From a virus: 34,465 nt of DNA. Shown here piece by piece: positions 21,530 to 33,788 of this stretch (position 1 is the stretch's first letter; every line of letters begins with the position of its first letter). The stretch is from IMG/VR virus record IMGVR_UViG_3300047300_000218, positions 1 to 34,465 of that record, one strand, 5' to 3'. A program made the translations under genes and the position numbers. The notes under the pieces were generated by a model. It had not been told where the DNA came from. It saw only the letters and a list, made by a program, of their open reading frames with translations, and did not search any database.

Positions 21530-21542
21530 GTTCAATTCCTTG

Positions 21543-21695: not shown

Positions 21696-21728
21696 ACAAT
21701 TCCTTTGTTTCGGAACCTTTATTGTCAA

Positions 21729-21746: not shown

Positions 21747-21747
21747 C

Positions 21748-21764: not shown

Positions 21765-21783
21765 GAGACAGCAGTTTTTTTTC

Positions 21784-22370: not shown

Positions 22371-22372
22371 AC

Positions 22373-22591
22373 ATGGGAAAAGGCAGCGCACCTCGTCCTT
22401 ACTCTGTTTCCGCAGAGGATTTCTCGTCCCGTTGGGATGCTATTTTTTCAAAGAAGGGTATTCAAAATGATGATGTTCAAAAAGAAACCAGTGGGCCAAA
22501 TGGCGCGCCTGAAGTTGCTTCTGAGCAAGAGCGATGGAACGACAGCAGCGGAAATCGCACGCTACCTTCCGACGACAAGCCCTCACAGTAA
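22373..22591 (+). CDS. MGKGSAPRP-type small conserved phage protein
   Basis: 72 aa. MGKGSAPRPYSVSAEDFSSR followed by WDAIFSKK is a very common opening of short proteins in proteobacterial prophages; function unknown. Such proteins usually end soon after WDAIFxKK. Here the frame runs on for about 44 residues through the start of the next gene, giving a hydrophilic, low-complexity tail. GAGG at 22361-22364 supports ATG 22373. It overlaps the next gene out of frame by about 125 nt. Confidence 0.65.
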   Translation: MGKGSAPRPYSVSAEDFSSRWDAIFSKKGIQNDDVQKETSGPNGAPEVASEQERWNDSSGNRTLPSDDKPSQ

Positions 22592-22691
22592 GCTGGCTAG
22601 ATTGGAGCGCGATCACCTTTGGACTGTGTTGCGAAAAGACAACGGTGATGGGACAAAGCGTTACTTTGGCAAACCGCCAAAGGACGCATAA
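22467..22691 (+). CDS. Small winged-helix DNA-binding protein
   Basis: 74 aa (ATG triplet at 22467, 22470, 22473; exact start uncertain). QMARLKLLLSKSDGTTAAEI, ARYLPTTSPHSKLARLERDH, LWTVLRKDNGDGTKRYFGKP reads as helix-turn-helix plus wing: helix, T-T-A-A-E-I turn, recognition helix, and a strand pair with GDGTKRYF. Likely an early transcription regulator. AAGG lies about 10 bases upstream. Its first half overlaps the preceding gene in another frame. The stop overlaps the next ATG (TAATG). Confidence 0.7.
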   Translation: MMMFKKKPVGQMARLKLLLSKSDGTTAAEIARYLPTTSPHSKLARLERDHLWTVLRKDNGDGTKRYFGKPPKDA

Positions 22692-22816
22692 TGGAAACGT
22701 GGCAACTGTGTCTCTTGCTGTTGGCAATCATTGAATCACCAAAGTTGTCAGACCATGATCGCAGTGGTCTTTTTTGGTGGATTCTTTCTATTGGTGTTGT
22801 TGCATATTTTTTCTGA
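22691..22816 (+). CDS. 41-aa membrane peptide
   Basis: METWQLCLLLLAIIESPKLS, DHDRSGLFWWILSIGVVAYF, F. Two hydrophobic stretches around a polar SPKLSDHDRSG turn: a possible hairpin membrane protein. The TAATG overlap with the preceding gene supports translation. Function unknown. Its 3' end contains the -35 region of the candidate promoter for the next unit. Confidence 0.5.
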   Translation: METWQLCLLLLAIIESPKLSDHDRSGLFWWILSIGVVAYFF

Positions 22817-22829
22817 TTGCTGGTACAAT
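22800..22829 (+). promoter_or_regulatory. Candidate promoter with extended -10
   Basis: TTGCAT (22800-22805), 18-bp spacer, TACAAT (22824-22829) preceded by TG at 22821-22822. Transcription would start near 22836, leaving a leader of about 100 nt before the HNH-like gene at 22937. Confidence 0.55.
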
Positions 22830-22846
22830 GATCTGAAACCCGGATA

Positions 22847-22918
22847 GGACGGACTAATTACCCGTCTGAAAAGCGCACCCACCTCGCCTTCCGTTGGTTT
22901 CTTCTAAGGTGGCTTTTT
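22847..22918 (+). promoter_or_regulatory. Structured leader with terminator-like end
   Basis: First hairpin GGACGG/CCGTCT (22847-22852 with 22862-22867). Then CCACCT (22879-22884) can pair with AGGTGG (22907-22912), followed by CTTTTTG. The competing pairing CGCCTT/AAGGTG (22885-22890 with 22906-22911) excludes the second one. It looks like an attenuated leader, or a small RNA of roughly 85 nt started by the promoter at 22800. The 120-bp stretch shows no gene. Confidence 0.4.
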
Positions 22919-22936
22919 GTTAATAAGGTGCGGCAT

Positions 22937-23326
22937 ATGGCTAAAAAAAGCTATTCCGAAAAATTGCTAGATCCTCGCTGGCAGCAGATGCGTCTTCGTG
23001 TGTTTGAACGCGACAAATGGAAGTGCGTGATATGTGGAGATGCTAAAAAAACACTTCACGCTCATCATCCTGTTTACCATCCAATGTCAGATGGCCCTTG
23101 GGATTATGAGGACGAACAAATTATTACTCTTTGCAAAGATTGTCATGACAATGAACATGATGCTCTTGATATTGCAAAGGCAAATTTATTACTTGCTGTT
23201 TTGAAACTTGGAGTTAAAACTTCTTCTGATATGGAAGTTTTTGTAGACTATCTTTCCATACTTGATATGGAAAGTTTGGAAAAATTCTTTATTTGGATGA
23301 ATCATGGCACGAATAAGAACAATTAA
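22937..23326 (+). CDS. HNH-like zinc-binding protein
   Basis: 129 aa. PRWQQMRLRVFERDKWKCVI (CxxC with ICGD), LHAHHPVYHP, then DEQIITLCKDCHDNEHD: two CxxC knuckles around an AHH core, the layout of HNH nucleases. The second CxxC-H resembles the N/H part of the motif. The C-terminal helical part (AKANLLLAVLKLGVKTSSDM) is specific. It could be a DNA nuclease acting in replication or packaging, or a structural zinc protein. AAGGTG at 22925-22930 supports ATG 22937. The 3' end overlaps the O-like gene by 23 nt. Confidence 0.7.
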   Translation: MAKKSYSEKLLDPRWQQMRLRVFERDKWKCVICGDAKKTLHAHHPVYHPMSDGPWDYEDEQIITLCKDCHDNEHDALDIAKANLLLAVLKLGVKTSSDMEVFVDYLSILDMESLEKFFIWMNHGTNKNN

Positions 23327-24128
23327 GCCAGAATTTTTCCGACACGAAGGGCTTTATGAGGCTGAAGTCAAGACAAAACTTCCTTTAAGAATTGCATTTG
23401 CTGGTTTATGGACTGCGTGTGATCGTGAAGGGCGTTTTAAATGGAAGCCAAGAGCATTAAAGCTAGATGTTCTTCCATACGACGACATTGATTTTTCACG
23501 CGTGCTTTACGCGTTGGTCACGCATGGATTTATCGTCAAATATGAGTTTGATGGTGATGAATATGGTTGTATTCCATCATGGAACAATCATCAGGTTATA
23601 AATAACAGAGAAAGCGCATCAACCTTGCCAAGTCTCGAAGAATCAACAACTTGCACGCATGAACCACGCGTTGATGACGCGTCAATCACGCCTCTTGTGC
23701 ATACTCAAGTGGAAGGGAAGGGAAGGGAAGGGAAAAGGAAGGGGAATAAGGAAAGCGCGATTGTTACGCGTCCTGACTTTGTTGATGAACAACTTTGGAA
23801 TGATTGGCTTATTATTCGTAAAAAGAAAAACGCACCTTTGACAACAACAGCATGGGCATTGATGACAAACGAGGCGGGAAAGGCTGGATGGCCGATTGAC
23901 AAAGCAATTGAGGAATGTTGCCTTAGAACGTGGTCGTCATTTAAAGCTGAGTGGGTTGCTGACAAGCAAAATCAGACAGAGACTGTCTACCAGCGTTCTA
24001 TGCGCTTGAAGATGCAGGAGGCCGTGCCAAGCATTGCAAAGCAATCTCCAGAACCTTACCAGGATGCCTCGGACTTTTTCAGGACGATTGATATGCAGAC
24101 TCAGAAAGTTATCGGGGTGGACAAATGA
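23304..24128 (+). CDS. Replication initiation protein, lambda O-like
   Basis: 274 aa. The N-terminal domain (MARIRTIKPEFFRHEGLYEA, LPLRIAFAGLWTACDREGRF, KWKPRALKLDVLPYDDIDFS) is a winged-helix replication domain widespread in phages. The middle (about 110-155) is low in structure and rich in Lys/Gly/Glu. The C-terminal part (DFVDEQLWNDWLIIRKKKNA, LTTTAWALMTNEAGKAGW) resembles phage O/DnaT-type ends. The coding sequence contains two phased 11-bp repeat arrays and a G4 motif, echoing the lambda origin that lies within gene O. Overlaps the next, P-like gene by 4 nt. Confidence 0.8.
   Translation: MARIRTIKPEFFRHEGLYEAEVKTKLPLRIAFAGLWTACDREGRFKWKPRALKLDVLPYDDIDFSRVLYALVTHGFIVKYEFDGDEYGCIPSWNNHQVINNRESASTLPSLEESTTCTHEPRVDDASITPLVHTQVEGKGREGKRKGNKESAIVTRPDFVDEQLWNDWLIIRKKKNAPLTTTAWALMTNEAGKAGWPIDKAIEECCLRTWSSFKAEWVADKQNQTETVYQRSMRLKMQEAVPSIAKQSPEPYQDASDFFRTIDMQTQKVIGVDK
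23497..23529. repeat. Iteron-like block I (three 11-bp repeats)
   Basis: CACGCGTGCTT, TACGCGTTGGT, CACGCATGGAT follow each other with an exact 11-bp period, about one helical turn, so a bound protein would see all three on one face. Located inside the O-like gene. Origin function is an inference. Confidence 0.6.
23654..23697. repeat. Iteron-like block II (four 11-bp repeats)
   Basis: CACGCATGAAC, CACGCGTTGAT, GACGCGTCAAT, CACGCCTCTTG at 23654, 23665, 23676 and 23687. A single further copy (TACGCGTCCTG) is at 23765. Between the two blocks lies an A+T-rich segment with TTATAAATAA (23596-23605), a possible unwinding site. Confidence 0.6.
23715..23732 (+). other. G-quadruplex motif in a purine tract
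   Basis: GGGAAGGGAAGGGAAGGG: four runs of three G separated by two-base loops, within an almost pure purine stretch (about 23710-23755). It codes for a Gly/Lys/Glu/Arg-rich linker (EGKGREGKRKG). It lies 18 bp after iteron block II. Such a motif could pause DNA synthesis or keep strands apart at an origin. Confidence 0.7.
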
Positions 24129-24463
24129 GCTTGCCAATGCCTTGGATTGAACGAATTTTCACAAAGCTGACCATGATCTATGGCCGTGACTTCATTGGCC
24201 GCTGGGAAGGCTTGAACATTGAAGAAGTAAAGATTGATTGGGCGCATGAGCTGGCTGGCTTTAAAGACCATCCTGACTCAATTGCATACGCTTTGAAAAA
24301 TATGCCTGATTCTGGAAAGCCGCCGACAGTATTGGAGTTTCGAGCGATGTGCAGAAAAGCACCTGATCCAACTGTGCCAATGCTTGAAAACAAGTTGACG
24401 CAAGAGCAAATGGCAGCAAACAAAAAGCGAATTGCTGAACTGATCGCAAAGGTGAATAAATGA
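24125..24463 (+). CDS. Replication protein P-like
   Basis: 112 aa. Follows the O-like gene with 4-nt overlap, in the place of lambda P, the helicase loader. The pattern WIERIFTKLTMIYGRDFIGR, WAHELAGFKDHPDSIAYALK, SGKPPTVLEFRAMCRKAP is that of a short P-like family in betaproteobacterial phages, where a helical domain ends in PPxxxEFRxxCR. It is much shorter than lambda P (233 aa) and has no ATPase motif, so it may recruit the host helicase directly. Function inferred by position and pattern. Confidence 0.6.
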   Translation: MSLPMPWIERIFTKLTMIYGRDFIGRWEGLNIEEVKIDWAHELAGFKDHPDSIAYALKNMPDSGKPPTVLEFRAMCRKAPDPTVPMLENKLTQEQMAANKKRIAELIAKVNK

Positions 24464-24651
24464 CCCGCACCTACGCCCTAAAACGCCTACTAGAGCACGG
24501 CGCACTGACAAGCAAAGAGATGGAAATCATCACTGGCTGGACAAGCAAGCAAGTCTGGTCAACGATCACAGCTTTGCAAAAGACAAACATCATCCGCAAG
24601 CTGCCAAAGATGACATGGGGGCTGACTGATATGAATCCAATGCCGTACTAA
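24460..24651 (+). CDS. Small HTH protein
   Basis: 63 aa. ALKRLLEHGALTSKEMEIIT, GWTSKQVWSTITALQKTNII, RKLPKMTWGLTDM is a compact winged helix: helix 1, a turn G-A-L-T-S-K-E, recognition helix GWTSKQVWSTITAL, and a short wing. Same fold as many phage transcription regulators and origin-associated proteins. ATGA overlap with the P-like gene suggests a replication or regulatory link. Confidence 0.65.
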   Translation: MTRTYALKRLLEHGALTSKEMEIITGWTSKQVWSTITALQKTNIIRKLPKMTWGLTDMNPMPY

Positions 24652-24660
24652 GGAGATAAC

Positions 24661-24864
24661 ATGAAATGGAAAATTAAAACAGGGCAACATTACAAAATTG
24701 GCAACATTAGGAAAAGAAGAATTTTTGCATGGAAGAAAACAAAAGTTGGAGAGCATTGGGTTTGGCTTGAGTCTTATCAAGTCACTGAAAGATTTTTCAT
24801 GAGCGTAAATGGACAATGCTGGTGGACTGAAGAATCACGAGAAACACTTGATTGTTATTGCTAA
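24661..24864 (+). CDS. Small basic, Trp-rich protein, unknown
   Basis: 67 aa, MKWKIKTGQHYKIGNIRKRR, IFAWKKTKVGEHWVWLESYQ, VTERFFMSVNGQCWWTEESR, ETLDCYC. Very basic first half, acidic Cys-containing end, seven Trp. No family recognised. It has a strong ribosome-binding site (AAGGAGATAAC), unlike most overlapped neighbours, so it is probably well expressed. A+T-rich compared with flanking genes, which may mark a later acquisition. Confidence 0.65.
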   Translation: MKWKIKTGQHYKIGNIRKRRIFAWKKTKVGEHWVWLESYQVTERFFMSVNGQCWWTEESRETLDCYC

Positions 24865-24873
24865 GGAGAGAAC

Positions 24874-25164
24874 ATGAAACGTGAAGACATCATTCGACTT
24901 GCAAAAGACGCTGGATTGTTTGTGGCGTATGACTCTGAAGGCCAGTTTTCAGCCGTTACAGACGAAGAAATCCATGACCTGCATCCTGACCCTAACAAAG
25001 AGCGAGATCGCATCTATCGTGAGCAACGTCTTGTTGAAATCTTGACTCCATTTGCTCAGCTTATCGCTTCTTCCACGCGTGAGGAGTGTGCAAAGGTATG
25101 CGAGGCCTATCTTGTGCCAGGAATTGCAAACGAAATGGCAAGAGTTATCAGGGCAAGGAACTAA
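24874..25164 (+). CDS. Accessory protein of the EREACAKVCE family, copy 1
   Basis: 96 aa. MKREDIIRLAKDAGLFVAYD at the start and STREECAKVCEAYLV...MARVIRARN at the end. The N-terminal KREDIIRLAKDAG and C-terminal xREECAKVCE...IRAR segments recur in the products at 29563 and 29862. The family is frequent in aquatic betaproteobacterial phages; the two Cys spaced CxxxC in a helix might bind metal. Function unknown. AAGGAGAGAAC precedes the start. The stop codon overlaps motif copy 2. Confidence 0.7.
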   Translation: MKREDIIRLAKDAGLFVAYDSEGQFSAVTDEEIHDLHPDPNKERDRIYREQRLVEILTPFAQLIASSTREECAKVCEAYLVPGIANEMARVIRARN

Positions 25165-25178
25165 GGGTTTTCCACAAT
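25162..25178 (+). promoter_or_regulatory. Dispersed 17-bp motif, copy 2
   Basis: TAAGGGTTTTCCACAAT begins with the stop codon of the preceding gene and ends inside the ATG of the next one (25177). Its AAGGG may double as ribosome-binding site here. Confidence 0.5.
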
Positions 25179-25389
25179 GTCTTACAGCCGTAAAACAATA
25201 GAAAATCAAAGCGACAGATACCAGATCGAGTTGGGCGAAGCTAGGGTTCTTTACTGCACCTATGTGATGACGGGGAAAAGCGTACTCACACGGGATCGAA
25301 TGGAGTATCTGGAAAAGCGATTTGGTCGAGGGTCTGTTGAGCGGATCAGGTCTTACATGAACAAACTACGAACAGGAGAATTGGAATGA
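25177..25389 (+). CDS. Small conserved protein (DUF7696-like), unknown
   Basis: 70 aa: MSYSRKTIENQSDRYQIELG, EARVLYCTYVMTGKSVLTRD, RMEYLEKRFGRGSVERIRSY, MNKLRTGELE. The layout (an acidic helix with a YQxELGEARxxYC segment, then RxEYLEKxxGRxxxERIR) is that of short proteins in Burkholderiales prophages. I recall the name DUF7696, tentatively. Helical, no catalytic motif. The stop overlaps the next start by 4 nt. Confidence 0.6.
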   Translation: MSYSRKTIENQSDRYQIELGEARVLYCTYVMTGKSVLTRDRMEYLEKRFGRGSVERIRSYMNKLRTGELE

Positions 25390-25610
25390 GTAAAGAAACA
25401 GGAGGCCCAGCGTTTCCTATCCAAGGCCATAGCACACGCAATGGACAAGGATTCCAGCTTGTTATGGCTGATGGTATGTCGATCAGGGACTACTTCGCGG
25501 CCAAAGCGATGCAGTCTTTTCTCACTGCGGATGGGACAACTTATTTCGATAACCGAGCCAAAGCAGCCTACGAAATGGCAGACACCATGCTGAAAGCGAG
25601 GGAGGCATGA
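25386..25610 (+). CDS. TGGPAFP-type small conserved protein
   Basis: 74 aa. TGGPAFPIQGHSTRNGQGFQ, then DGMSIRDYFAAKAMQSFLTA, then AAYEMADTMLKAREA. This family is widespread in prophages (GGPAFP...GMxLRDYFAAxAM...YxxADxML). It is of unknown function and usually sits among ninX-like accessory genes. ATGA overlaps on both sides place it in a tightly coupled operon leading to rusA. Confidence 0.75.
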   Translation: MSKETGGPAFPIQGHSTRNGQGFQLVMADGMSIRDYFAAKAMQSFLTADGTTYFDNRAKAAYEMADTMLKAREA

Positions 25611-25816
25611 GCCAGGGCGATATGTGGCAAACCAAAGATGGCCGCAAAGGCTTGGAAGTCCGCAGGAACGACAAACAGTTGTTGCTGTCTTTGATGCGCG
25701 ATGATTGGCCGTGGCCTGACTTTCCGCAATGGTTTGATCGAGCTGACTGCGTGAAGTTGCCTAGTCGGTATCACGGCAATCAAGTGCTGGAAGAAGCTGG
25801 CGAGGCATTGCTGTAA
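25607..25816 (+). CDS. Small protein before rusA, unknown
   Basis: 69 aa: MSQGDMWQTKDGRKGLEVRR, NDKQLLLSLMRDDWPWPDFP, QWFDRADCVKLPSRYHGNQV, LEEAGEALL. It looks like a small beta domain with a short acidic end (WPWPDFPQWF); no family recognised. Coupled to both neighbours (ATGA at its start, TAATG at its end). Confidence 0.6.
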   Translation: MSQGDMWQTKDGRKGLEVRRNDKQLLLSLMRDDWPWPDFPQWFDRADCVKLPSRYHGNQVLEEAGEALL

Positions 25817-26226
25817 TGTTTCAACTGATTTTCAGCGTTGAAGGCGATCCAGTTGGAAAGCAACGGCCACGCTTTGCAAAAGGCAGGACGTACACGCCCA
25901 AAAAAACGGTTGATTACGAGAACAAGATCAAAGCGCAAGCAATGAGCGCAATGGGAAGCGCAGAGCCACTAGAAACGCCTGTGGCCGTGTATTTGTACGT
26001 GAACCATGCAGTACCAGCGTCATACAGCAAAAAGCGCCGTGAGGCTTGTTTGAATCGCTTAGAGCGACCAAAGAAACCTGACTTGGATAATTGCGCAAAA
26101 GCCTATCTTGATGCAATGAACGGTATTGTTTACAAGGATGATGTCCAGGTAGTGAGTCTGCACATTACCAAGCGATACGACACCATTGCCGGCGTTCATG
26201 TTTGCGTGCGCGAGGAGCTGGAGTGA
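25816..26226 (+). CDS. rusA: RusA-family Holliday junction resolvase
   Basis: 136 aa. Cuts Holliday junctions formed by recombination. FSVEGDPVGKQRPRFAKGRT and RPKKPDLDNCAKAYLDAMNG, IVYKDDVQVVSL show the RusA catalytic acidic residues (Asp89, Asp91, and the Asp108/109 pair) and the conserved K-P-D-L-D-N motif. Length agrees with E. coli RusA (120 aa). Pairs functionally with the ERF and NinB recombination proteins. Its TGA overlaps the GTG start of ninB. Confidence 0.92.
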   Translation: MFQLIFSVEGDPVGKQRPRFAKGRTYTPKKTVDYENKIKAQAMSAMGSAEPLETPVAVYLYVNHAVPASYSKKRREACLNRLERPKKPDLDNCAKAYLDAMNGIVYKDDVQVVSLHITKRYDTIAGVHVCVREELE

Positions 26227-26630
26227 AGCTGACAATCGACCTACACAACCGCCAGCAAGCATGGATCGCCATCAAAGCACAGTTGTTTCCGTTTCTTGAA
26301 TCCGCATTGCAAGCTGGAGGCCAATGGGTTTTAACCGTCAGCAAGAAAAAGCGAACGCCAGCACAAAACCGCAGGTATTGGGGCAATGGTGTGCTGAAGC
26401 AAATTGCAGATCAGGCGGTAGTTGGTGGAAAACTGTTCCCCGCTGAGATATGGCACGAGCAATTCAAACGCCAGTTCATCGGATTTGAAGAACTGCCAAA
26501 TGGCGAAGTGATCGGCAAGAGCAGCACAAAGCTGACAACCGCTGAATTTTGCATCTTTTGCGACCAGGTGGAGGCTTATGCGGCCACAACGCTTGGCGTG
26601 ACTTTCTATGACTTGGAGCCAAACCGATGA
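26223..26630 (+). CDS. ninB: NinB/Orf-type recombination mediator
   Basis: 135 aa. GTG start at 26223 in the GTGA overlap, with GAGGAG upstream. KKKRTPAQNRRYWGNGVLKQ, IADQAVVGGKLFPAEIWHEQ, FKRQFIGFEELPNGEVIGKS match lambda NinB (Orf), a SSB-associated recombination mediator. STKLTTAEFCIFCDQVEAYA, ATTLGVTF also match. The neighbouring rusA and DUF1364 gene form the same nin-like recombination block as in lambdoid phages. Confidence 0.88.
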   Translation: MKLTIDLHNRQQAWIAIKAQLFPFLESALQAGGQWVLTVSKKKRTPAQNRRYWGNGVLKQIADQAVVGGKLFPAEIWHEQFKRQFIGFEELPNGEVIGKSSTKLTTAEFCIFCDQVEAYAATTLGVTFYDLEPNR

Positions 26631-26959
26631 TGTTCCCAAAGCACAAATATGTCAGAAGCAAAAAGCTACTTGAAGCCGCAAGAGAGATCCCATGCCAGTG
26701 GTGTGGCGCTGATGATGGCACTGTTGTGGCCGCGCATTCCAATTCATTGATGCATGGCAAGGGACGTGGAATAAAAGCAGACGACAACATGATCGCAAGT
26801 CTTTGCTACTTTTGTCATGCAGAGTGCGATTCTGGAAAGATGATGACAAAAGGCGAACGCCAGGGGATGTGGCGTACAGCTCACGAACGCACGGTTGATA
26901 AGCTGACCGAGATGGGGCTATGGCCTGACGATGTGCCAAAACCTAGGGGTTTTTACTGA
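26627..26959 (+). CDS. DUF1364 (YbcO-like) putative nuclease
   Basis: 110 aa. RSKKLLEAAREIPCQWCGAD, DGTVVAAHSNSLMHGKGRGI, KADDNMIASLCYFCHAECDS is the DUF1364 signature: CxxC, A-H-S-N, GKGxGIKADD, CxxCH. YbcO of a cryptic lambdoid prophage has this HNH-related zinc fold, and it replaces Rap/NinG-type recombination nucleases in some phages. Starts with a double ATG overlapping the ninB stop. Its end carries motif copy 3 and two overlapping hairpins. Confidence 0.85.
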   Translation: MMFPKHKYVRSKKLLEAAREIPCQWCGADDGTVVAAHSNSLMHGKGRGIKADDNMIASLCYFCHAECDSGKMMTKGERQGMWRTAHERTVDKLTEMGLWPDDVPKPRGFY

Positions 26960-26968
26960 TGTAAAAAC
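26938..26968 (+). promoter_or_regulatory. Two overlapping, mutually exclusive hairpins before the ParB-like gene
   Basis: AAAACC-TAGG-GGTTTT (26938-26953) and GTTTTTAC-TGAT-GTAAAAAC (26949-26968) share the GGTTTT part, so only one can form. The second encloses the stop codon of the DUF1364 gene. A 47-bp A+T-rich leader to ATG 27007 follows. Possibly an RNA switch or processing site; could also be chance within motif copy 3. Confidence 0.4.
26944..26960 (+). promoter_or_regulatory. Dispersed 17-bp motif, copy 3
   Basis: TAGGGGTTTTTACTGAT, the most diverged copy, overlapping the last codons of the DUF1364 gene and lying 47 bp before the ParB-like gene. Followed by GTAAAAAC, comparable to GTAATTTT after copy 5. 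Confidence 0.45.
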
Positions 26969-27006
26969 TCAAGAAATTGTAGAAAATAAAAGCCTAAGGA
27001 GTGTTT

Positions 27007-27696
27007 ATGACCAATGATCTTTTTTCAAAACCAAACGTAGTTGAGCAAGCAATAACAATATTTGCTTCGCTTGAGTCTATGGAGCTTCAGGAAAAAATTG
27101 AAGCTATCAACTTAATCCGTGAGGCGTTGCTAGTCCATTCTCCATTTAAGAATGAGCCTGTGGATTGCGTGCGCTGGATCAAGTCTGATCTAGTCAACGC
27201 CAACGACTACAACCCAAACAGCGTTGCGCCACCAGAAATGAAGTTGCTTGAGCACTCAATCACTGAAGATGGCTATACGCAACCAATCGTTTCTTGGAGT
27301 CGTGATGGAATCTTTGAGGTTGTTGATGGATTTCACCGCCATCGTGTCGGAAAAGAATCTCCAACTGTAAGAGCGCGTGTTCATGGCTATCTGCCTGCTG
27401 TTGTCATTAACAGCAATCGTCAAGAAAAGAATGATCGCATGGCTTCAACAATTCGCCACAATCGCGCCCGTGGCGAGCATAAAGTTGAATCAATGTCTGA
27501 AATTGTTGTTGAGCTAAAGCGCCGTTTTTGGTCTGATGAAAAAATTGCTAAAGAACTTGGAATGGAAGCTGATGAAGTTTTGAGGCTTCAGCAAGTAACT
27601 GGGCTTTCTGGACTGTTTGCAGACGCTGATTTTTCAGAGGCTTGGGAGGCTGAGACATTTGAAGAAGTAGAGGGCGTTGATGAACCGCTTTCTTGA
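27007..27696 (+). CDS. ParB-like (IbrB-type) protein
   Basis: 229 aa; ATG 27007 with AAGGAG at 26996-27001. Helical N-terminal part (about 1-50), then a ParB/sulfiredoxin-type domain: VNANDYNPNSVAPPEMKLLE, HSITEDGYTQPIVSWSRDGI, FEVVDGFHRHRVGKES with the D-G-F-H-R motif. Next is NRQEKNDRMASTIRHNRARG, then a helix-turn-helix-like segment (VVELKRRFWSDEKIAKELGM). It matches IbrB, the partner of IbrA; both are known as activators of immunoglobulin-binding genes in E. coli. An in-frame GTG two codons upstream is unlikely. Overlaps the next gene by 17 nt. Confidence 0.8.
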   Translation: MTNDLFSKPNVVEQAITIFASLESMELQEKIEAINLIREALLVHSPFKNEPVDCVRWIKSDLVNANDYNPNSVAPPEMKLLEHSITEDGYTQPIVSWSRDGIFEVVDGFHRHRVGKESPTVRARVHGYLPAVVINSNRQEKNDRMASTIRHNRARGEHKVESMSEIVVELKRRFWSDEKIAKELGMEADEVLRLQQVTGLSGLFADADFSEAWEAETFEEVEGVDEPLS

Positions 27697-28057
27697 TCTA
27701 TTTGAAAAGTGGCATCCATACTGGAATTGGGAGTGCTTCAAAAATGGAATGTGGGAAAAAAGAAAAAATGATATGAACAAAATTCAAATGTGCGCTCAAG
27801 TTCTTTCAAATGAAGGCCAATGCAAACTTGCAATGATTGGCGCTGTAAACAAGTTCCCAATCAGTGCGGAGCAACATCTGACAAAGCCAATGGGTAAACG
27901 CCCTTGGATTGGTCAAGCGGCCTGTTGCTATCAAGTTGGGGCGACAGAGGAAGAAACCAGGATCGCTTGGAATTTCTATATGACACCAGAATCTCAAGCA
28001 ATGGCAAACCGCGTTGCTGATGAAGTAATTGAAATGTGGGAGAAAGGCAATGCCTAA
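27680..28057 (+). CDS. Middle gene of the ParB/PAPS-reductase cassette, unknown
   Basis: 125 aa. A Trp-rich N-terminus (MNRFLDLFEKWHPYWNWECF), then NKIQMCAQVLSNEGQCKLAM, GKRPWIGQAACCYQVGATEE and ETRIAWNFYMTPESQAMANR. The RPWIGQAACCYxxGAxEExTRxAW part looks conserved and may bind metal or nucleotide through its CC pair. I know no function. Its overlaps of 17 nt and 8 nt with the flanking ParB-like and PAPS-reductase-like genes suggest that the three work as a unit. Confidence 0.65.
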   Translation: MNRFLDLFEKWHPYWNWECFKNGMWEKRKNDMNKIQMCAQVLSNEGQCKLAMIGAVNKFPISAEQHLTKPMGKRPWIGQAACCYQVGATEEETRIAWNFYMTPESQAMANRVADEVIEMWEKGNA

Positions 28058-29273
28058 GCGTGGACTTGGAATCAATGTTCTTCAAGCCGCACAGCAGCGC
28101 ATTGAATGGACTTTCGACAACTTTGACAAAATTTATTGCAGCTTTTCAGCAGGAAAAGATAGTGGCGTGATGGTTCATCTTGTCTGCGAAGAAGCGAAAA
28201 AACGTGGACGCAAGATTGGTCTGTTTTTCCTTGACTGGGAAGCGCAATTCTATTTGACTATTGATTTTGCAGAGCAAATCTATGCAGAATACGCAGATAA
28301 CATTGAACCGTATTGGGTTGCAGTGCCAATCAAAACATGGAATGCTTGCTCTACTCATGAGCCTGAATGGACTGCATGGGATGAACAAAAAAAGAATCTA
28401 TGGGCGCGTCAAAAATCAGAGGTCAGCATCAAAGATGGATCACACTTCCCATTTTGGTATGAAGGAATCATGTTTGAGGAATTTGTGCCTACGTTTGGTC
28501 AGTGGTATGCACAAGGCGAGAAATGCGCCTGCTTTGTTGGCATCCGAGCACAAGAGAGTTTGAATCGATTTCGGTCTATCAGTCGTAACAAGCCAACTTA
28601 CGATGGGAAGATGTACACGACAAACGTGGTTGAAAATGTTTGGAATGTGTACCCGATCTATGATTGGAAAGTGGAAGACATCTGGACATTTCATGCAAAG
28701 ACTGGAAAGAGTCACAACAAATTGTATGACCGTATGCACCAGGCTGGAATGAAGCTAAGTCAAATGCGTATTTGTGAGCCAATGGGTGACGAGTCTCGCA
28801 AAGGTCTGTGGCTGTATCAAGTTGTTGAGCCAAGTCTTTGGGCAAAATTAGTCTTGCGTGTTAATGGCGCAAACACTGGAAAAATGTATAGCAATGAACG
28901 TGGAAACGTGATGGGGAATCACACAATCACATTGCCAAAAGGACATACGTGGGAAAGTTTTGCAAAAAGTCTGTTGTCGAGTACTCCACCAAAGACAGCC
29001 CAGCACTATAAAAACAAAATTGCTGTTTACATCAAGTGGTGGACTTCGCGTGGTTATCCTGATGGCATACCTGATGAGGCAGACTTGAAGATTGAAAACG
29101 CAGGCAAAGCACCGAGCTGGAGGCGCATTTGTAAAACATTGCTTCGCAATGACTACTGGTGTAAGTATCTGGGTTTTAGCCCAACAAAAACAAGCGCATA
29201 CAAAAAGTATGAAGACCTGATGAAGCGCCGCCGTATTGCCTGGAACATCTTTGCTGATGAACTAAAGTCGTAA
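28050..29273 (+). CDS. PAPS-reductase-like protein (IbrA type, DUF3440)
   Basis: 407 aa. The N-terminal half is an adenine-nucleotide alpha hydrolase/PAPS reductase fold: IYCSFSAGKDSGVMVHLVCE has the PP-loop S-x-G-K-D-S (about residues 33-39), GLFFLDWEAQFYLTIDFAEQ follows, and CFVGIRAQESLNRFR is the second nucleotide site. The C-terminal half is DUF3440 (TLPKGHTWESFAKSLLSSTP...). The pair with the ParB-like gene is the IbrA/IbrB pair. PP-loop relatives include DndC of the DNA phosphorothioation system, so nucleic-acid thiolation or adenylation chemistry is conceivable. The rest of the Dnd genes are absent. ATG 28050 follows AAAGG. Confidence 0.85.
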   Translation: MPKRGLGINVLQAAQQRIEWTFDNFDKIYCSFSAGKDSGVMVHLVCEEAKKRGRKIGLFFLDWEAQFYLTIDFAEQIYAEYADNIEPYWVAVPIKTWNACSTHEPEWTAWDEQKKNLWARQKSEVSIKDGSHFPFWYEGIMFEEFVPTFGQWYAQGEKCACFVGIRAQESLNRFRSISRNKPTYDGKMYTTNVVENVWNVYPIYDWKVEDIWTFHAKTGKSHNKLYDRMHQAGMKLSQMRICEPMGDESRKGLWLYQVVEPSLWAKLVLRVNGANTGKMYSNERGNVMGNHTITLPKGHTWESFAKSLLSSTPPKTAQHYKNKIAVYIKWWTSRGYPDGIPDEADLKIENAGKAPSWRRICKTLLRNDYWCKYLGFSPTKTSAYKKYEDLMKRRRIAWNIFADELKS

Positions 29274-29287
29274 GGGTTTTTCCTAAT
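29271..29287 (+). promoter_or_regulatory. Dispersed 17-bp motif, copy 4
   Basis: TAAGGGTTTTTCCTAAT starts with the stop codon of the PAPS-reductase-like gene. Together with copy 3 it brackets the three-gene cassette (26944 and 29271), in the same orientation. The 66-bp gap that follows leads to the gene at 29340. Confidence 0.6.
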
Positions 29288-29339
29288 ACTAATCTCACAA
29301 AAGATGATTGACAATAAGTCATCGCAACCAAGGAACTGT

Positions 29340-29573
29340 ATGAAACAATTTGAATACACCACAACACTGAACGGCGGCATCGTTACCGTCTATCTTGCTG
29401 TCACCGAAACTGATGACGAGTGCGGAACTCATTGCTTCACTGACTTTGACAGCGTTTGGTTTGACGGAACAAACATCACATCAATCCTGACAAAAGAACA
29501 GATTGCCGAGCTTGAAATAGAAGCTGAGGCAGGATTCTTTGAATCTGGATGGGAGAGCGCAAATGGCTATTGA
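29340..29573 (+). CDS. Small acidic protein, unknown
   Basis: 77 aa: MKQFEYTTTLNGGIVTVYLA, VTETDDECGTHCFTDFDSVW, FDGTNITSILTKEQIAELEI, EAEAGFFESGWESANGY. Small beta domain with an acidic helix at the end; resembles short DNA-mimic-like phage proteins in charge but no family is recognised. ATG 29340 is chosen because AAGGAACTGT precedes it; the longer frame to 29304 runs through the intergenic region. Overlaps the next gene by 11 nt. Confidence 0.65.
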   Translation: MKQFEYTTTLNGGIVTVYLAVTETDDECGTHCFTDFDSVWFDGTNITSILTKEQIAELEIEAEAGFFESGWESANGY

Positions 29574-29865
29574 TCGTGAACAAATCATTGAAATGGCGCG
29601 GAAGTCTGGCGCTGGTGTATTGACAAGCGCAATGCCACTTGAGCATCCTTGGGTGTTTTTGCCTGTTGAACTTGAACGCTTCGCCGCCCTTGTCGCTGCT
29701 GCCGAGCGCAAGCGGTCCGAGCAAGAGATGGCCATGATGTCGGAGCACTGTGCCGAGCAGATTCTCATGGAGCGCGAGGCGTGTGCGAAGGTGTGTGAAG
29801 ACGATTTTGGCAACGGTGCTTTGAATCTCGCAGCCGCCATCCGAGCACGAGGAGAAACCAAATGA
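29563..29865 (+). CDS. Accessory protein of the EREACAKVCE family, copy 2
   Basis: 100 aa. MAIDREQIIEMARKSGAGVL at the start, LERFAALVAAAERKRSEQEM in the middle, MEREACAKVCEDDFGNGALN, LAAAIRARG at the end. It is mostly one long helix, probably a coiled coil, with the CAKVC pair and the IRAR end shared with the products at 24874 and 29862. ATG 29563 is preceded by GGGAG; the longer frame back to 29539 lies inside the preceding gene. Function unknown. Confidence 0.7.
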   Translation: MAIDREQIIEMARKSGAGVLTSAMPLEHPWVFLPVELERFAALVAAAERKRSEQEMAMMSEHCAEQILMEREACAKVCEDDFGNGALNLAAAIRARGETK

Positions 29866-30149
29866 ATACTAAGCCAAACGCAATCCACTTTTATAGCAAT
29901 GGCGCATACGTGGAAATCATGCGTATGTCTCCTGAAGGAATATGGGCTAATCCAGATGTTCCAGTGGATGGCATTGCAAAGCAGGTTTTGGAAGCTCTTG
30001 ATTCAAATATCAAGTTAATGGTGCAACGTGCTGTTGAAAACGAGCGTGAGGCGTGTGCGAAGCTGTGTGAAACAGAGTGGTCAAACGTAGCTGAACGAAT
30101 GTACGGCGAGGAATGCGCCGCCACCATCCGAGCAAGGAACAACACATGA
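29862..30149 (+). CDS. Accessory protein of the EREACAKVCE family, copy 3
   Basis: 95 aa. A different N-terminal part (MNTKPNAIHFYSNGAYVEIM, RMSPEGIWANPDVPVDGIAK, QVLEALD) is joined to the shared helix ENEREACAKLCETEWSNVAE, RMYGEECAATIRARN. The N-terminal segment recalls a small beta domain (I-H-F-Y...GIWANPD) of other phage proteins. So the same C-terminal module is attached to different heads within one operon. 4-nt overlaps on both sides. Confidence 0.7.
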   Translation: MNTKPNAIHFYSNGAYVEIMRMSPEGIWANPDVPVDGIAKQVLEALDSNIKLMVQRAVENEREACAKLCETEWSNVAERMYGEECAATIRARNNT

Positions 30150-30280
30150 ACGACTTATTTAAGCCGCATCAATGCCCATGTTGTTTTGGGCTGTTTAAGG
30201 TAGGCGACAGGTTTTGGAATGACTCTGGAACTGTTTATCACTGGATGTGCTGGGCAAATAAATCAAAGGAAACCAAATGA
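30146..30280 (+). CDS. 44-aa zinc-ribbon-like peptide
   Basis: MNDLFKPHQCPCCFGLFKVG, DRFWNDSGTVYHWMCWANKS, KETK. The cysteines (CPCC near residue 10, C35) and His residues suggest a small metal site. It fits exactly between neighbours with ATGA overlaps at both ends, which makes translation likely. Function unknown. Confidence 0.6.
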   Translation: MNDLFKPHQCPCCFGLFKVGDRFWNDSGTVYHWMCWANKSKETK

Positions 30281-30489
30281 CAAAACAACCAGAGGCTTTG
30301 CTGTTGGCTGACTCGCTGAAAAACTGCACAAGCATCGTAGGAGCATCCCGCATGGAAAACGAACTCCGCCGCCTGCACGAAGTAAACCAAGAGTTGCTGG
30401 AGGCTTTGAAGTTCATTCGCAATTCAGGATATATGCCGCAAGCGTTGATTGAGCATATTGATGCCATCGCCAAAGGAGAACAACCATGA
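30277..30489 (+). CDS. Small coiled-coil accessory protein
   Basis: 70 aa: PEALLLADSLKNCTSIVGAS, RMENELRRLHEVNQELLEAL, KFIRNSGYMPQALIEHIDAI. The heptad-like ENELRRLHEVNQELLEAL is a frequent element in short accessory proteins of Burkholderiales phages. Likely a dimerising helix; no function known. ATGA overlaps on both sides. Confidence 0.65.
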   Translation: MTKQPEALLLADSLKNCTSIVGASRMENELRRLHEVNQELLEALKFIRNSGYMPQALIEHIDAIAKGEQP

Positions 30490-30836
30490 CTGACAAAGAA
30501 CTGCTAGAGCTGGCTGCGAAGGCGGCTGGGATTGAAGTTTACGAAAGCACAGACGGAACACTTCAGAATCGACCTGTATTGGTTTTCACTGCCGGAGGAG
30601 GCATGGGGACGATGCCATATGAAGAGCGTTGGAATCCTTTGGCGTACGACGCTCAGGCGCTTAGGTTGGCTGTGAAGTTGGGTCTTGATGTTTTGCGTGG
30701 CTCAGAAATGGTTGTCGCTGAGACCGAGAAGCCCAAAGAAGTGGGTTGCGTAGAGCTGTTTTCAGGAGACCCCTACGCCGCCACCCGCCGCGCCATCGTG
30801 CGTGCTGCCGCTGAAATTGGAAAGGCCATGAAATGA
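30486..30836 (+). CDS. Conserved accessory protein, unknown
   Basis: 116 aa. MTDKELLELAAKAAGIEVYE, then WNPLAYDAQALRLAVKLGLD and DPYAATRRAIVRAAAEIGKA. This WNPLxxDxxALRLAxxL...DPYAATRRAIVRAAAEIG pattern is common in proteobacterial phage accessory operons. Relatives are annotated only as hypothetical. The C-terminal part is a helix with alternating Ala/Arg. Starts and ends in 4-nt overlaps. Confidence 0.7.
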   Translation: MTDKELLELAAKAAGIEVYESTDGTLQNRPVLVFTAGGGMGTMPYEERWNPLAYDAQALRLAVKLGLDVLRGSEMVVAETEKPKEVGCVELFSGDPYAATRRAIVRAAAEIGKAMK

Positions 30837-30952
30837 CTGACGAATTTGCAGTGGCCGCATTGCTCTTATTCATTGCTGGCATTGCAGTAATTGAACATCA
30901 GCCGATCTTGGCATTTGTGCTGGCTATGCTGGCGATTGGAGTATTGAAATGA
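30833..30952 (+). CDS. 39-aa two-helix membrane peptide
   Basis: MTDEFAVAALLLFIAGIAVI, EHQPILAFVLAMLAIGVLK. Two hydrophobic helices around an E-H-Q-P turn, so probably a membrane hairpin. ATGA overlap with both neighbours supports it. Function unknown; may modify the host membrane or be a superinfection factor (speculative). Confidence 0.55.
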   Translation: MTDEFAVAALLLFIAGIAVIEHQPILAFVLAMLAIGVLK

Positions 30953-31560
30953 CTGACAAGAAAACAGAGGCTTTTTTTACTTATGCACATTTTCGGTCTG
31001 ACGATTTAAAACTCTTTTATATCGGCAAAGGCAAGCGAGACCGGATTGTGAGCAAAGCAAATCGCAATCAATACTGGCATAACACTGTTACAAAACACGG
31101 TTTAAAAATTGAACGGCTGGCAAAATGGAAAACCGAACAGGAGGCGATAGCTCATGAGCGCTTTTTGATCTGGTGCCTTAGGGATATGGGCGTGAATCTA
31201 GTCAACATGACCGATGGTGGGGAAGGGCTTGCAAACCCATCAGAAGAAACTAGGCGAAAACTGTCTGCAAACAATCCAATGAAACGCCCAGAGATAGCCG
31301 CAAAAAACACAGCACTTCGTATTGGCGGTAAGTTGCCTCCGGTTACTGATGATGCGAAAAGAAAAATGTCAGCAGCAGCAAAAGGACGAGTGTTTTCTGA
31401 GCAGCACAAGGCAAACATATCTGCTGCAAGGAAAGGCATGGTGTTCAGTGACGAGCATAAAAAGAAATTAGCAGAATCTGCAACAGGAAGAAAATTTTCT
31501 GATGAACGCAGAAGAAAACTATCAGAAGTCACAAAAAGGAGATGGGCAAATGTTAAATAA
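30949..31560 (+). CDS. GIY-YIG homing endonuclease with NUMOD3 repeats
   Basis: 203 aa. The N-terminal GIY-YIG-type domain is variant: FFTYAHFRSDDLKLFYIGKG (Y...FYIGKG), with R at KRDRIV and a catalytic Glu in AIAHERFLIW. It is followed by four or five NUMOD3-type DNA-binding units: SEETRRKLSANNPMKRP, TDDAKRKMSAAAKGR, SEQHKANISAARKG, SDEHKKKLAESATGR, SDERRRKLSEVTKRRW. It cuts intron-less target alleles and spreads itself. Free-standing, not inside an intron. Lies between small accessory genes in the operon. Confidence 0.88.
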   Translation: MTDKKTEAFFTYAHFRSDDLKLFYIGKGKRDRIVSKANRNQYWHNTVTKHGLKIERLAKWKTEQEAIAHERFLIWCLRDMGVNLVNMTDGGEGLANPSEETRRKLSANNPMKRPEIAAKNTALRIGGKLPPVTDDAKRKMSAAAKGRVFSEQHKANISAARKGMVFSDEHKKKLAESATGRKFSDERRRKLSEVTKRRWANVK

Positions 31561-31879
31561 ACAAACAAAAGCATTGCGACTGGCGCTGGATGCGATCTGC
31601 GGAAGCGGGGATTTCCTGTTTAACTGGCACGAGTGCGAACCCAACAACGAGAGAGAAATGCAGCGATACCAAGAAACGCTAGAGGCCAACGAAAAGGCTT
31701 TCAATGCCATTCGCGAAGTACTTGCCGAGCAGCCAGCTATTAAGCAAGACTTAACACCTGAGCAGCCAGCACAGCAGCAGGAGCCTTTGTTTAAACCATT
31801 GATTGACAGCCTTCCCGGACTAGCCGAGGAACTTAAAGCAATGGACGTTGCACAGCCGCAGCAGGAGTCAAGCAAATGA
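31550..31879 (+). CDS. Small accessory protein, Gln/Pro-rich end
   Basis: 109 aa. MLNKQTKALRLALDAICGSG, DFLFNWHECEPNNEREMQRY, QETLEANEKAFNAIREVLAE, then a flexible Gln/Glu/Pro stretch (EQPAQQQEPLF). The start has AGGAG at 31537-31541 inside the endonuclease gene; the longer frame back to 31502 is rejected. A helical domain in front, low complexity behind; related short proteins occur in Burkholderiales phages. Function unknown. Confidence 0.6.
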   Translation: MLNKQTKALRLALDAICGSGDFLFNWHECEPNNEREMQRYQETLEANEKAFNAIREVLAEQPAIKQDLTPEQPAQQQEPLFKPLIDSLPGLAEELKAMDVAQPQQESSK

Positions 31880-32400
31880 ATCAGCAAGAACTCAAGACGC
31901 TATTGCACTACGACCCACCAACTGGTGTGTTCCGCTGGCGTCATGCGCCTAAGCGTGGGATGCAGCCTTGGGATGTGGCTGGAAGCGCAGAGCGTGGGTA
32001 CATCCGAATTCAAGTTAGAGGCAAGTTGCACCGGGCGCACCGTTTGGCTTGGCTGTATGTGCATGGTGAATGGCCGAGCAGTGAGCTTGATCACATCAAC
32101 CGCAATCGGGCTGACAACAGGATCAACAACCTGCGACTTGCTGATAGGTCACTGAATATGCAGAACGGCGGCAAACGCTCTGACAATGTTAGCGGATTTG
32201 TCGGAGTATCAATAAGCAAATGGGCGAAGCGATGGCAGGCGCAAATCAAGACGAACGGAAAAAGTGTTCATCTCGGCTATTTTGATAGTCCAGAGTTGGC
32301 GCATGAGGCGTATCTTTCCGCAAAGGCTGAATACCATGTCCGAGCTATCGAAGCCGCCCACGGAATTACAGGAGAACAAAATGCAACTGGAGGTTTTTGA
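31876..32400 (+). CDS. HNH homing endonuclease with AP2 domain
   Basis: 174 aa. The N-terminal part (LKTLLHYDPPTGVFRWRHAP) and RAHRLAWLYVHGEWPSSELD, HINRNRADNRINNLRLADRS, LNMQN are the HNH core (H-R-L-A-W, L-D-H-I-N, N-x-x-x-N-L-R). The C-terminal part (SGFVGVSISKWAKRWQAQIK, GYFDSPELAHEAYLSAKAEY) is an AP2-type DNA-binding domain. Free-standing homing nuclease, the second in this operon. Starts by 4-nt overlap; its end overlaps the next gene by 20 nt. Confidence 0.9.
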   Translation: MNQQELKTLLHYDPPTGVFRWRHAPKRGMQPWDVAGSAERGYIRIQVRGKLHRAHRLAWLYVHGEWPSSELDHINRNRADNRINNLRLADRSLNMQNGGKRSDNVSGFVGVSISKWAKRWQAQIKTNGKSVHLGYFDSPELAHEAYLSAKAEYHVRAIEAAHGITGEQNATGGF

Positions 32401-32629
32401 TGTTTTCTCTATCTTTATTTCGGGCCTCACGATCGGACTCATCGGAGCGCACTACGTCAACAAACACGAACTCAAACTCGCATACAACCGAGGAGTCATG
32501 GATGCACTCTGGGAGGTCTATCTCATCGGGATGCGACAGCACCTTGGTGGCGTGCTCGGCGCTTCCAGAGACGAAGCGACTGGTTGTGAAACAGGCAATC
32601 AAAAGACTGTTTGGAAAAGGTCACTTTGA
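32381..32629 (+). CDS. Small membrane-anchored protein
   Basis: 82 aa. The start (ATG 32381, AGGAGAACAAA upstream) gives MQLEVFDVFSIFISGLTIGL, IGAHYVNKHELKLAYNRGVM, DALWEVYLIGMRQHLGGVLG. One N-terminal membrane segment, then a helix. The last 20 residues (ASRDEATGCETGNQKTVWKR...) look random and coincide with the start of the next gene in another frame. An extension after loss of an earlier stop is therefore possible. Function unknown. Confidence 0.55.
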   Translation: MQLEVFDVFSIFISGLTIGLIGAHYVNKHELKLAYNRGVMDALWEVYLIGMRQHLGGVLGASRDEATGCETGNQKTVWKRSL

Positions 32630-32837
32630 CATTTGCATTGTGCGTGAAGTCTCTGAAATTGTTGGCGCTCGACGTGGCGGCGATGCTTATAAGATGTTGC
32701 GTGCCTTGCACTGCGTTGACTATGCCAGCATGGAGCCTGAGCTGCGTGCAAGGTTGCCTGAGTTGGTGAATGAATGCCTGCGCCAGCAAGACAACGTAAT
32801 TGAAGCCACAGAAGTGGCACTAAAAGGAATCGTATGA
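32586..32837 (+). CDS. Small conserved protein, unknown
   Basis: 83 aa from GTG 32586: MKQAIKRLFGKGHFDICIVR, EVSEIVGARRGGDAYKMLRA, LHCVDYASMEPELRARLPEL, VNECLRQ. The LHCVDYxxMxPELRxRLPELVNECL pattern is familiar from lambda-like prophages, where such proteins sit shortly before the late regulator. The longer frame to 32397 is Ser/Thr-rich nonsense and is rejected. It has no strong ribosome-binding site and overlaps the previous gene by 44 nt. Confidence 0.65.
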   Translation: MKQAIKRLFGKGHFDICIVREVSEIVGARRGGDAYKMLRALHCVDYASMEPELRARLPELVNECLRQQDNVIEATEVALKGIV

Positions 32838-32965
32838 AATGCTGCAACAACCAATGCCGCCAGGGCAGAGACTGTCCAAACCGTGAGGTTTATCGAAACA
32901 TTGCCTTAGGATTGCTGTCGTTCTGGATAACTCTAATCTGTGTTCTTGTGTGGTTTTTTAAATGA
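32834..32965 (+). CDS. 43-aa Cys-rich membrane peptide
   Basis: MKCCNNQCRQGRDCPNREVY, RNIALGLLSFWITLICVLVW, FFK. Head with C-C-x3-C-x5-C (CCNNQCRQGRDCP), then one membrane helix. Peptides of the type CxxxCxQGRxCP plus membrane helix are frequent in prophages. AAAAGGAATCGT precedes the start; 4-nt overlaps link it to both neighbours. Function unknown. Confidence 0.65.
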   Translation: MKCCNNQCRQGRDCPNREVYRNIALGLLSFWITLICVLVWFFK

Positions 32966-33423
32966 GAAAAAAGTCAAAATATAAACCAAAAGGCGTAAGA
33001 ATTGACGCATTGAACTGGGTATTGTCTGGCATGAAGCCGATCGCACAAGTTGGTGATGCCCTTGTCACGCTGAACGCAAAGAACTACGCTGCACTGGATG
33101 AAATCAAGAATGGGCGATCAACGTCTGATCATGTTGACGTAATCATTGCCGCCGTGAACATGGCTGAGGCGTTTGCCAGAAAAGGCGTTGGATCAGACTG
33201 GATCGAAGAAATCAGACAAGCCCAAGACGCTGTTTACACAATGGCAAAGCGTGGACTGTCTAAAGGTCGATTCTTGTTTACTGGCCCTGAGATGCAGGCC
33301 GTATCACTGGCGATGGAAGTTCATGCCGCCCAGCTTGAAGCCAGCTCAGTGAAAGACATGGAAGACTGCCTGAAAGTCGTTGAAGACGAAATCAGGCATA
33401 AGAGAGCAAGACGGATTCAGTAA
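32962..33423 (+). CDS. Conserved phage protein at the late-regulator position, unknown
   Basis: 153 aa. RKKSKYKPKGVRIDALNWVL, SGMKPIAQVGDALVTLNAKN, then IIAAVNMAEAFARKGVGSDW, GLSKGRFLFTGPEMQAVSLA and MEVHAAQLEASSVKDMEDCL. A helical, basic-ended family well represented in betaproteobacterial prophages. It is the last gene of the rightward early operon, where lambda keeps the antiterminator Q, so a late-gene regulatory role is a possibility. No DNA-binding motif was recognised. The 3' end overlaps the convergent gene by 7 nt. Confidence 0.7.
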   Translation: MRKKSKYKPKGVRIDALNWVLSGMKPIAQVGDALVTLNAKNYAALDEIKNGRSTSDHVDVIIAAVNMAEAFARKGVGSDWIEEIRQAQDAVYTMAKRGLSKGRFLFTGPEMQAVSLAMEVHAAQLEASSVKDMEDCLKVVEDEIRHKRARRIQ

Positions 33424-33512
33424 AAGAGAACGTCAAAGTATGCAAGGGCAAATCCACAAAGGACGAGGCCCAAGCCGACTGCCAATGTAATGTCTGCGAT
33501 GATTGCTTTCAT
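33417..33512 (-). CDS. 31-aa membrane peptide
   Basis: MKAIIADITLAVGLGLVLCG, FALAYFDVLFY: a single hydrophobic helix. A strong ribosome-binding site (AGGAGTTCACC) precedes the ATG. The stop overlaps the 3' end of the opposite gene. Second of two short - strand genes with nearly identical translation starts. Function unknown; too short for homology judgement by eye. Confidence 0.6.
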   Translation of the reverse strand: MKAIIADITLAVGLGLVLCGFALAYFDVLFY

Positions 33513-33524
33513 GGTGAACTCCTA

Positions 33525-33671
33525 TTAGGCTTTGATGAATTTGTTGAATGCGTTGACATAGCCAATGGCTTCTTCTTCAGTGCTGAAGAACATCTCATTT
33601 GGCAAGTCTTCAAAGACCAGCATCGCAAACACGCCGCCGCAAGCCTGTGTAATTTTCTCAATTGTCATCAT
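33525..33671 (-). CDS. 48-aa small protein
   Basis: MMTIEKITQACGGVFAMLVF, EDLPNEMFFSTEEEAIGYVN, AFNKFIKA. A small beta-alpha protein by pattern (VFAMLVFEDL, then FFSTEEEAIGYVNAF). Ribosome-binding site AGGAGTTCACA is the same ten bases as for the following gene at 33512. A candidate - strand promoter lies 35-65 bp upstream. The segment FSTEEEAIGYV is typical of short phage accessory proteins. Function unknown. Confidence 0.65.
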   Translation of the reverse strand: MMTIEKITQACGGVFAMLVFEDLPNEMFFSTEEEAIGYVNAFNKFIKA

Positions 33672-33705
33672 TGTGAACTCCTGTTGTTGATGGCTCTATT
33701 GTCTA

Positions 33706-33734
33706 GTTATCAACAAAAAATTACATTAGGACAA
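33706..33734 (-). promoter_or_regulatory. Candidate promoter for the two short - strand genes
   Basis: On the - strand TTGTCC (33734-33729), 17-bp spacer, GATAAC (33711-33706). The -35 lies inside motif copy 5. Confidence 0.45.
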
Positions 33735-33741
33735 ACCCTAA
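33725..33741 (-). promoter_or_regulatory. Dispersed 17-bp motif, copy 5
   Basis: TTAGGGTTTGTCCTAAT on the - strand, between the divergent starts of the short - strand genes and the gpZ-like gene. It adjoins the -35 of the + strand candidate promoter and contains that of the - strand one. Confidence 0.6.
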
Positions 33742-33770
33742 TTGGAAAAGCATTGCAAATGTGATATATC
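33742..33770 (+). promoter_or_regulatory. Candidate promoter for the gpZ-like gene and late genes
   Basis: TTGGAA (33742-33747), 17-bp spacer, TATATC (33765-33770), with TG at 33762-33763 as an extended -10. If the genome is circular, this could drive the whole late region through the terminase genes. Confidence 0.5.
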
Positions 33771-33788
33771 TACACAAGAGGCCACCAA

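Follow-up and report, generated by a model that had tools for sequence, protein, structure and literature searches.

The window analysed here, the whole 34,465-base stretch of an IMG/VR virus record, carries at 27007-29273 three overlapping plus-strand genes in the order ibrB-mid-ibrA: ibrB (27007..27696) encodes a 229-aa ParB/Srx-like protein with a DGFHR nucleotide-binding box and a helix-turn-helix-like C-terminal part; mid (27680..28057) encodes a 125-aa all-helical protein of a new family, Mid, which we propose as a phage-specific third subunit; and ibrA (28050..29273) encodes a 407-aa DUF3440 PP-loop ATP-pyrophosphatase. The overlaps are 17 nt for ibrB/mid and 8 nt for mid/ibrA, and a plausible ribosome-binding site precedes each gene. 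The three motifs by which a preliminary description of this DNA had characterized the proteins are all present, as D107-G-F-H-R111 in IbrB, W76-I-G-Q-A-A-C-C83 in Mid, and S33-A-G-K-D-S38 in IbrA. Relative to the nearest relative, contig L008, amino acid identity is 85% for ibrB, 78% for mid, and 95% for ibrA, with 0.10, 0.15, and 0.04 non-synonymous differences per site, respectively, and about 0.7-0.8 synonymous differences per site in each gene; on these substitution figures all three genes are under purifying selection, and Mid is the fastest evolving.

The cassette is also flanked, as had been noticed before, by copies of a 17-bp motif, presumably the near-palindromic TAAGGGTTTTTCCTAAT, of which the window holds 6 copies at up to 3 mismatches where 0.05 are expected. 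One copy, TAGGGGTTTTTACTGAT (26944..26960, plus strand, 3 mismatches to TAAGGGTTTTTCCTAAT), lies just upstream of ibrB and is followed after 21 nt by a -10-like hexamer, GAAAAT (26982..26987, plus strand), and then by the ribosome-binding site and ibrB; an exact copy (29271-29287) starts at the ibrA stop codon and, together with GACAAT at 29310-29315, makes up a promoter-like element of the next gene (29271..29315, plus strand) which forms the right bound of the cassette. The composite of motif, 21-22 nt, and GA[CA]AAT occurs at five sites in the window (21748(-), 25162(+), 26944(+), 29271(+), and 33725(-)) and at none in 12 shuffles, and is probably a phage promoter under the control of an activator or a repressor. 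Given the copies before ibrB and at the ibrA stop codon, the cassette looks like a transcription unit of its own; and since the 17-bp motif is absent from contig L010, which carries the same three genes (see below), the motif belongs to the window phage rather than to the cassette.

Upstream of the cassette, RusA, a NinB-like gene, and a YbcO-like gene mark a lambda nin-like recombination region. No tRNA genes were found in the window, an Rfam RNA search gave no match, and no near-identical DNA to positions 18000-34465 was found in INPHARED. Close to the cassette are a NUMOD3-motif protein, probably a GIY-YIG homing endonuclease (30949-31557), and an HNH-AP2 homing-type endonuclease (31876-32397); a 30-bp coding repeat (25075-25104, 29770-29799, and 30042-30071), with a peptide like EREACAKVCE, is common to three small phage genes.

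The IbrA/IbrB-type identity suggested for the outer two genes is borne out by profile searches. IbrB matches PHROG 2159 (ParB-like) with E=7e-69, matches Pfam ParB_N weakly and under the Pfam cut-off, and is 47-69% identical to the IbrB proteins of cultured phages; among 133 relatives, the N-YNPN, DG-HR, and T-RHNRARG motifs are at least 95% conserved. An IbrB profile run against the PDB found SbnI at E=0.001, with ParB/Noc scores equal or better. We rejected IbrB as the partition ParB of a ParABS system (TIGR00180, 16.7 bits versus a cut-off of 58.45), and there was no ParA partner among the neighbours tested. IbrA matches Pfam DUF3440 (1e-39; 136.5 bits versus a cut-off of 25), PHROG 2302 (2e-90), and Pfam PAPS_reduct (1.5e-15). 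A set of 135 IbrA sequences keeps the PP-loop S-x-GKDS, D62/E64, GIRxxES, and YDW motifs (GIRxxESLNR and YPIYDW in the window protein; positions in the conservation listing, which starts at an upstream codon, are 7 higher), and because conservation of its PP-loop residues is 97% or higher, IbrA is probably catalytic. The ECGLH motif of CysH is present in 0 of the 135 proteins and no cysteine is invariant, the best being 88% conserved, which counts against both persulfide-based sulfur transfer and PAPS reduction.

Mid is a real and conserved family that had not been described. It matches no family in Pfam, NCBIfam, or PADLOC and nothing convincing in PHROG, and 57 members of the family searched against Pfam and PHROG still gave nothing convincing; a profile scan of IMG/VR nonetheless recovers about 330 relatives. 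Structure prediction, which the preliminary description had recommended for this protein, gives with AlphaFold a confident all-helical model of seven helices (pLDDT 94.9) with no match in the PDB by profile or by fold, and with one significant match in BFVD, a nameless 116-aa protein that is probably the Mid of Pseudoalteromonas phage XCL1123. The invariant residues are W17, E18, W76, G78, A80, and A113. With E18 the sole invariant charged residue and no catalytic-looking set of residues, Mid would more naturally have a binding or adaptor role than an enzymatic one.

Mid is tightly linked to ibrA and ibrB. In the best 80 of the 330 IMG/VR loci, whose neighbourhoods we read, ibrA and ibrB adjoin Mid in 77, and the other 3 (L017, L018, and L038), which lack one or both genes, are contigs that end inside the cassette; the middle gene of the preliminary description thus does co-occur with its two neighbours, a comparison that could have gone against it, and the phage-borne cassette with a genuine middle gene stands. 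The reverse search, with IbrA alone as bait, returned 79 loci, 55 with all three genes, 22 with ibrA-ibrB and no Mid, and 2 incomplete; after removal of near-identical IbrA proteins, Mid is present in 101 of 122 rows. The order is ibrB-mid-ibrA, as in the window, in 51 loci, mid-ibrA-ibrB in 22 (and in 8 more with an extra small gene), and ibrA-ibrB-mid in 15. The persistence of the linkage through such reshuffling points to a functional connection more than to descent from a single ancestral operon. Among the phages in INPHARED, Mid was found in Pseudomonas phage Amjad_SA, Pseudoalteromonas phage XCL1123, and mycobacteriophages Gaia and Nebkiss; it lies inside the ibrAB operon of Amjad_SA, XCL1123, Gaia, and Microcystis phage Mwe-JY13, with a gene order that varies among them; in Mwe-JY13, a 141-aa gene annotated as 'ParB/sulfiredoxin' (L006 2549-2974) is a misannotated Mid homologue. 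Two contigs, L037 and L155, carry duplicated genes (two ibrA genes in one locus, two mid genes in one).

Physical association of Mid with IbrB is supported by gene fusion: a single 376-aa open reading frame joins IbrB and Mid in L069 and L079, where the full frames were read, and same-frame fusions were also called in L086 and L087. All four contigs belong to one clade next to Mwe-JY13, so that the fusion may be a single event, and probably is. Apparent fusions of mid with ibrA or with its C-terminal part (L155, L075) were rejected as two matches in different frames. Distance-matrix coevolution is strong between IbrA and IbrB (r=0.83) and weak between Mid and either protein (0.12 overall, about 0.4 among close pairs), so that it favours neither as the binding partner of Mid.

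The cassette moves between unrelated phages as a unit. In a blastn comparison, contig L010 (40 kb, of which 10.4 kb was read) matches the window at 27097-29266 with 80% identity and otherwise in one weak 164-bp stretch; the DNA match begins inside ibrB and stops with ibrA, and of 19 L010 genes compared with the window proteins, only the three cassette proteins match. L097 and L098 repeat this pattern at the protein level. Mid is found almost only in phages, whereas the ibrAB pair alone is common on plasmids: among 72,556 plasmids scanned, IbrA was found in 661 and Mid in 0 (with a single query, which detects less than a profile would); 4 loci with Mid turned up in 84,980 species genomes scanned; and among 195 genomes of one bacterial phylum, DUF3440 was found in 14 and Mid in 1, the genome at the centre of the sample. 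In a convenience sample of enterobacterial records, ibrAB without Mid adjoins F4 fimbriae, CaiF/GrlA-SprB-GrlR regulators with fimbriae, autotransporters, iro or iutA, or LysR/ybdO.

As to ALTERNATIVES and add-ons, ibrAB loci that lack Mid usually have in its stead an unrelated small gene of about 110-145 aa upstream of ibrA (17 loci, for example L168 3645-4019, L149 3612-4016, L142 3621-4052, and L005 571-945); gene 6 of Chlorobiaceae phage CV-1-33 is of this kind too. Mid and this alternative small gene never occur together in the 170 loci counted, some of which overlap one another; this exclusion partly reflects ancestry, since one branch of the IbrA tree (support 71) has the alternative-gene loci all on the same side. 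Profile comparison finds no similarity between the two proteins, which are unrelated. The alternative small gene is itself a new family, whose model (pLDDT 82) has no significant match in the PDB by fold; a viral scan with one such sequence as query returned its own contig only. Other loci carry further enzymes: i) a GNAT acetyltransferase gene lies in or beside the cassette in 17 loci (L106 3622-3996, L134 3723-4133, and L197 7405-7866 lie inside it, in phages and on a Rhodovastum plasmid); ii) an ectoine-synthase-like (EctC-like) cupin (Pfam 1e-33) lies in or beside the cassette in 18 loci, as a separate gene or fused to IbrB, with L074 4074-4463, L092 5114-5479, and L003 5308-6204, inside the cassette or fused, in one clade; and iii) in a deep clade, a separate short open reading frame of about 70-120 aa, homologous to the DUF3440 C-terminal part of IbrA, adjoins Mid alongside the longer IbrA gene (L018 5326-5604, L003 6829-7143, and L039 1314-1601).

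Of known systems, the closest is the IbrA/IbrB pair itself (E. coli ybdN/ybdM and the plasmid and prophage ibrAB), with which the window cassette shares both core genes, overlapping and co-oriented, and the conserved PP-loop and DGxHR boxes. A DUF3440 PP-loop protein and an adjacent DGxHR ParB-like protein are thus both at hand, but the usual two-gene composition is not: the window cassette has a third, essentially phage-only gene, in the order ibrB-mid-ibrA, and its relatives sometimes include a GNAT, an EctC-like, or a separate DUF3440 C-terminal reading frame. The Dpd system, which makes 7-deazaguanine in DNA, follows the same logic of a ParB-like NTPase beside a base-modifying enzyme; here, however, no DpdA/TGT was found among the neighbours tested, and a PP-loop enzyme takes its place. 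We conclude that the cassette is a three-gene version of IbrAB that is conserved, mobile, and specific to phages, and that its third protein is new.

What this cassette does is a separate matter. We tentatively prefer to read it as a phage-adapted, three-component IbrAB whose protein complex may modify nucleic acid. It is likely that IbrB, Mid, and IbrA belong to a common three-protein complex, as the conservation of the three genes, their travelling together, and the occasional fusion of Mid to IbrB all suggest; Mid would be a non-catalytic docking or targeting subunit on IbrB. Judging from their families, IbrA would activate a substrate with ATP in its PP-loop site, by an adenylation that releases pyrophosphate; IbrB would be a nucleotide-dependent ParB-like partner with a helix-turn-helix of the DNA-binding type. 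A less certain step is that the complex might then modify nucleic acid, with DNA as the likeliest target and with IbrB and Mid picking the sites; in some relatives an acetyltransferase or an ectoine-synthase-like enzyme would be added for tailoring, and the outcome would be altered gene expression or protection of the phage genome during infection. Taken one by one, covalent modification of nucleic acid by the cassette is quite possible, though short of probable, and DNA rather than RNA as its target is doubtful.

The best of the other explanations is that the cassette is a transcription regulator, in which IbrB binds DNA and nucleotide and IbrA and Mid modulate it with no covalent change, so as to activate prophage or host genes. 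IbrA and IbrB were reportedly found in older E. coli work to be co-activators of prophage gene expression and are so named in annotations, and IbrB has a ParB-like helix-turn-helix; the main support comes from the bacterial ibrAB genes that adjoin regulators and surface or iron genes, since the frequent position of enterobacterial plasmid ibrAB beside adhesin, fimbrial, regulator, or iron-uptake genes agrees with regulation that requires no modification. Yet the conserved ATP-pyrophosphatase site of IbrA, and the GNAT and EctC tailoring enzymes in the cassette, are hard to explain without chemistry, and we consider a purely regulatory role unlikely.

Chemistry could instead be directed at tRNA or at a small molecule such as an amino acid or nucleotide. 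PP-loop enzymes often act on tRNA; SerK and SbnI, which are ParB/Srx relatives, are kinases of free serine, and the IbrB profile matches SbnI in the PDB; and GNAT and EctC enzymes, each encoded in some cassettes, use diamino acids as substrates when ectoine is made. The C-terminal part of IbrB is, however, of the ParB DNA-binding type, ParB/Noc structures score at least as well as SbnI, and (weak evidence) the window has no tRNA gene, which together make a tRNA or small-molecule target improbable. Still less probable is a toxin-antitoxin or anti-phage (superinfection exclusion) pair with an accessory protein: the cassette does behave as a mobile accessory gene set, and the Listeria ParB/DUF3440 pair lmo1309/lmo1310 has been listed, by guilt-by-association, as a putative toxin-antitoxin pair (PMC7020466), but PADLOC finds no complete system among the three proteins, only partial DndC/BrxP similarity, and neither IbrB, Mid, nor IbrA shows any sign of a toxin domain.

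Two further explanations are barely tenable. An assimilatory PAPS reductase, that is, a sulfur auxiliary metabolic gene (cysH) with unrelated neighbours, would account for the shared PP-loop fold, the PAPS_reduct match, the PHROG name, and the frequent reading of phage cysH-named genes as PAPS reductase (PMC10914622, PMC11041744), but not for the missing ECGLH catalytic motif, the extra DUF3440 C-terminal domain, the constant ParB-like partner and Mid, or scores far under the cut-offs of the CysH models (PRK02090, 35.4 versus 154 bits; TIGR02057, 35 versus 254 bits). DNA phosphorothioation of the Dnd/Ssp type, an analogy drawn in the preliminary description that we do not uphold, likewise pairs a PP-loop protein with a ParB-like DGxHR protein, and IbrA has local similarity to DndC (2e-6) while the DGxHR protein resembles DndB, but IbrA scores 20.7 versus 290.4 bits against the DndC model, no cysteine is invariant in the 135 IbrA sequences, there is no DndB model match, and PADLOC, run on the three cassette proteins and on ten neighbours, found no cysteine desulfurase, DndD/E, or SspB/C.

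Metagenomic papers take phage cysH as evidence of assimilatory sulfate reduction (PMC10914622, PMC11041744, PMC8226683), and some of the cysH genes in these papers may be IbrA-type genes without the CysH motif. Among the open papers searched, DUF3440 is mentioned in two, neither of which gives a mechanism.

We wish to stress that IbrA and IbrB occur widely on phages, plasmids, and chromosomes, and that IbrA-type genes match the PAPS-reductase models behind the inference of a role in sulfur metabolism. It is a speculative idea, and on balance an unlikely one, that IbrA/IbrB could form the heart of a phage machinery for modifying nucleic acid that has not been described before, in which either Mid or the alternative small protein can serve as third subunit and GNAT or ectoine-synthase-like tailoring is optional, and that part of what is called viral cysH could really be such machinery. 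The linked phage-specific Mid, its mutually exclusive replacement, and the tailoring enzymes provide handles for finding the activity of IbrAB, and cultured phages with the trio exist, namely Gaia of M. smegmatis, Amjad_SA, XCL1123, and Mwe-JY13.
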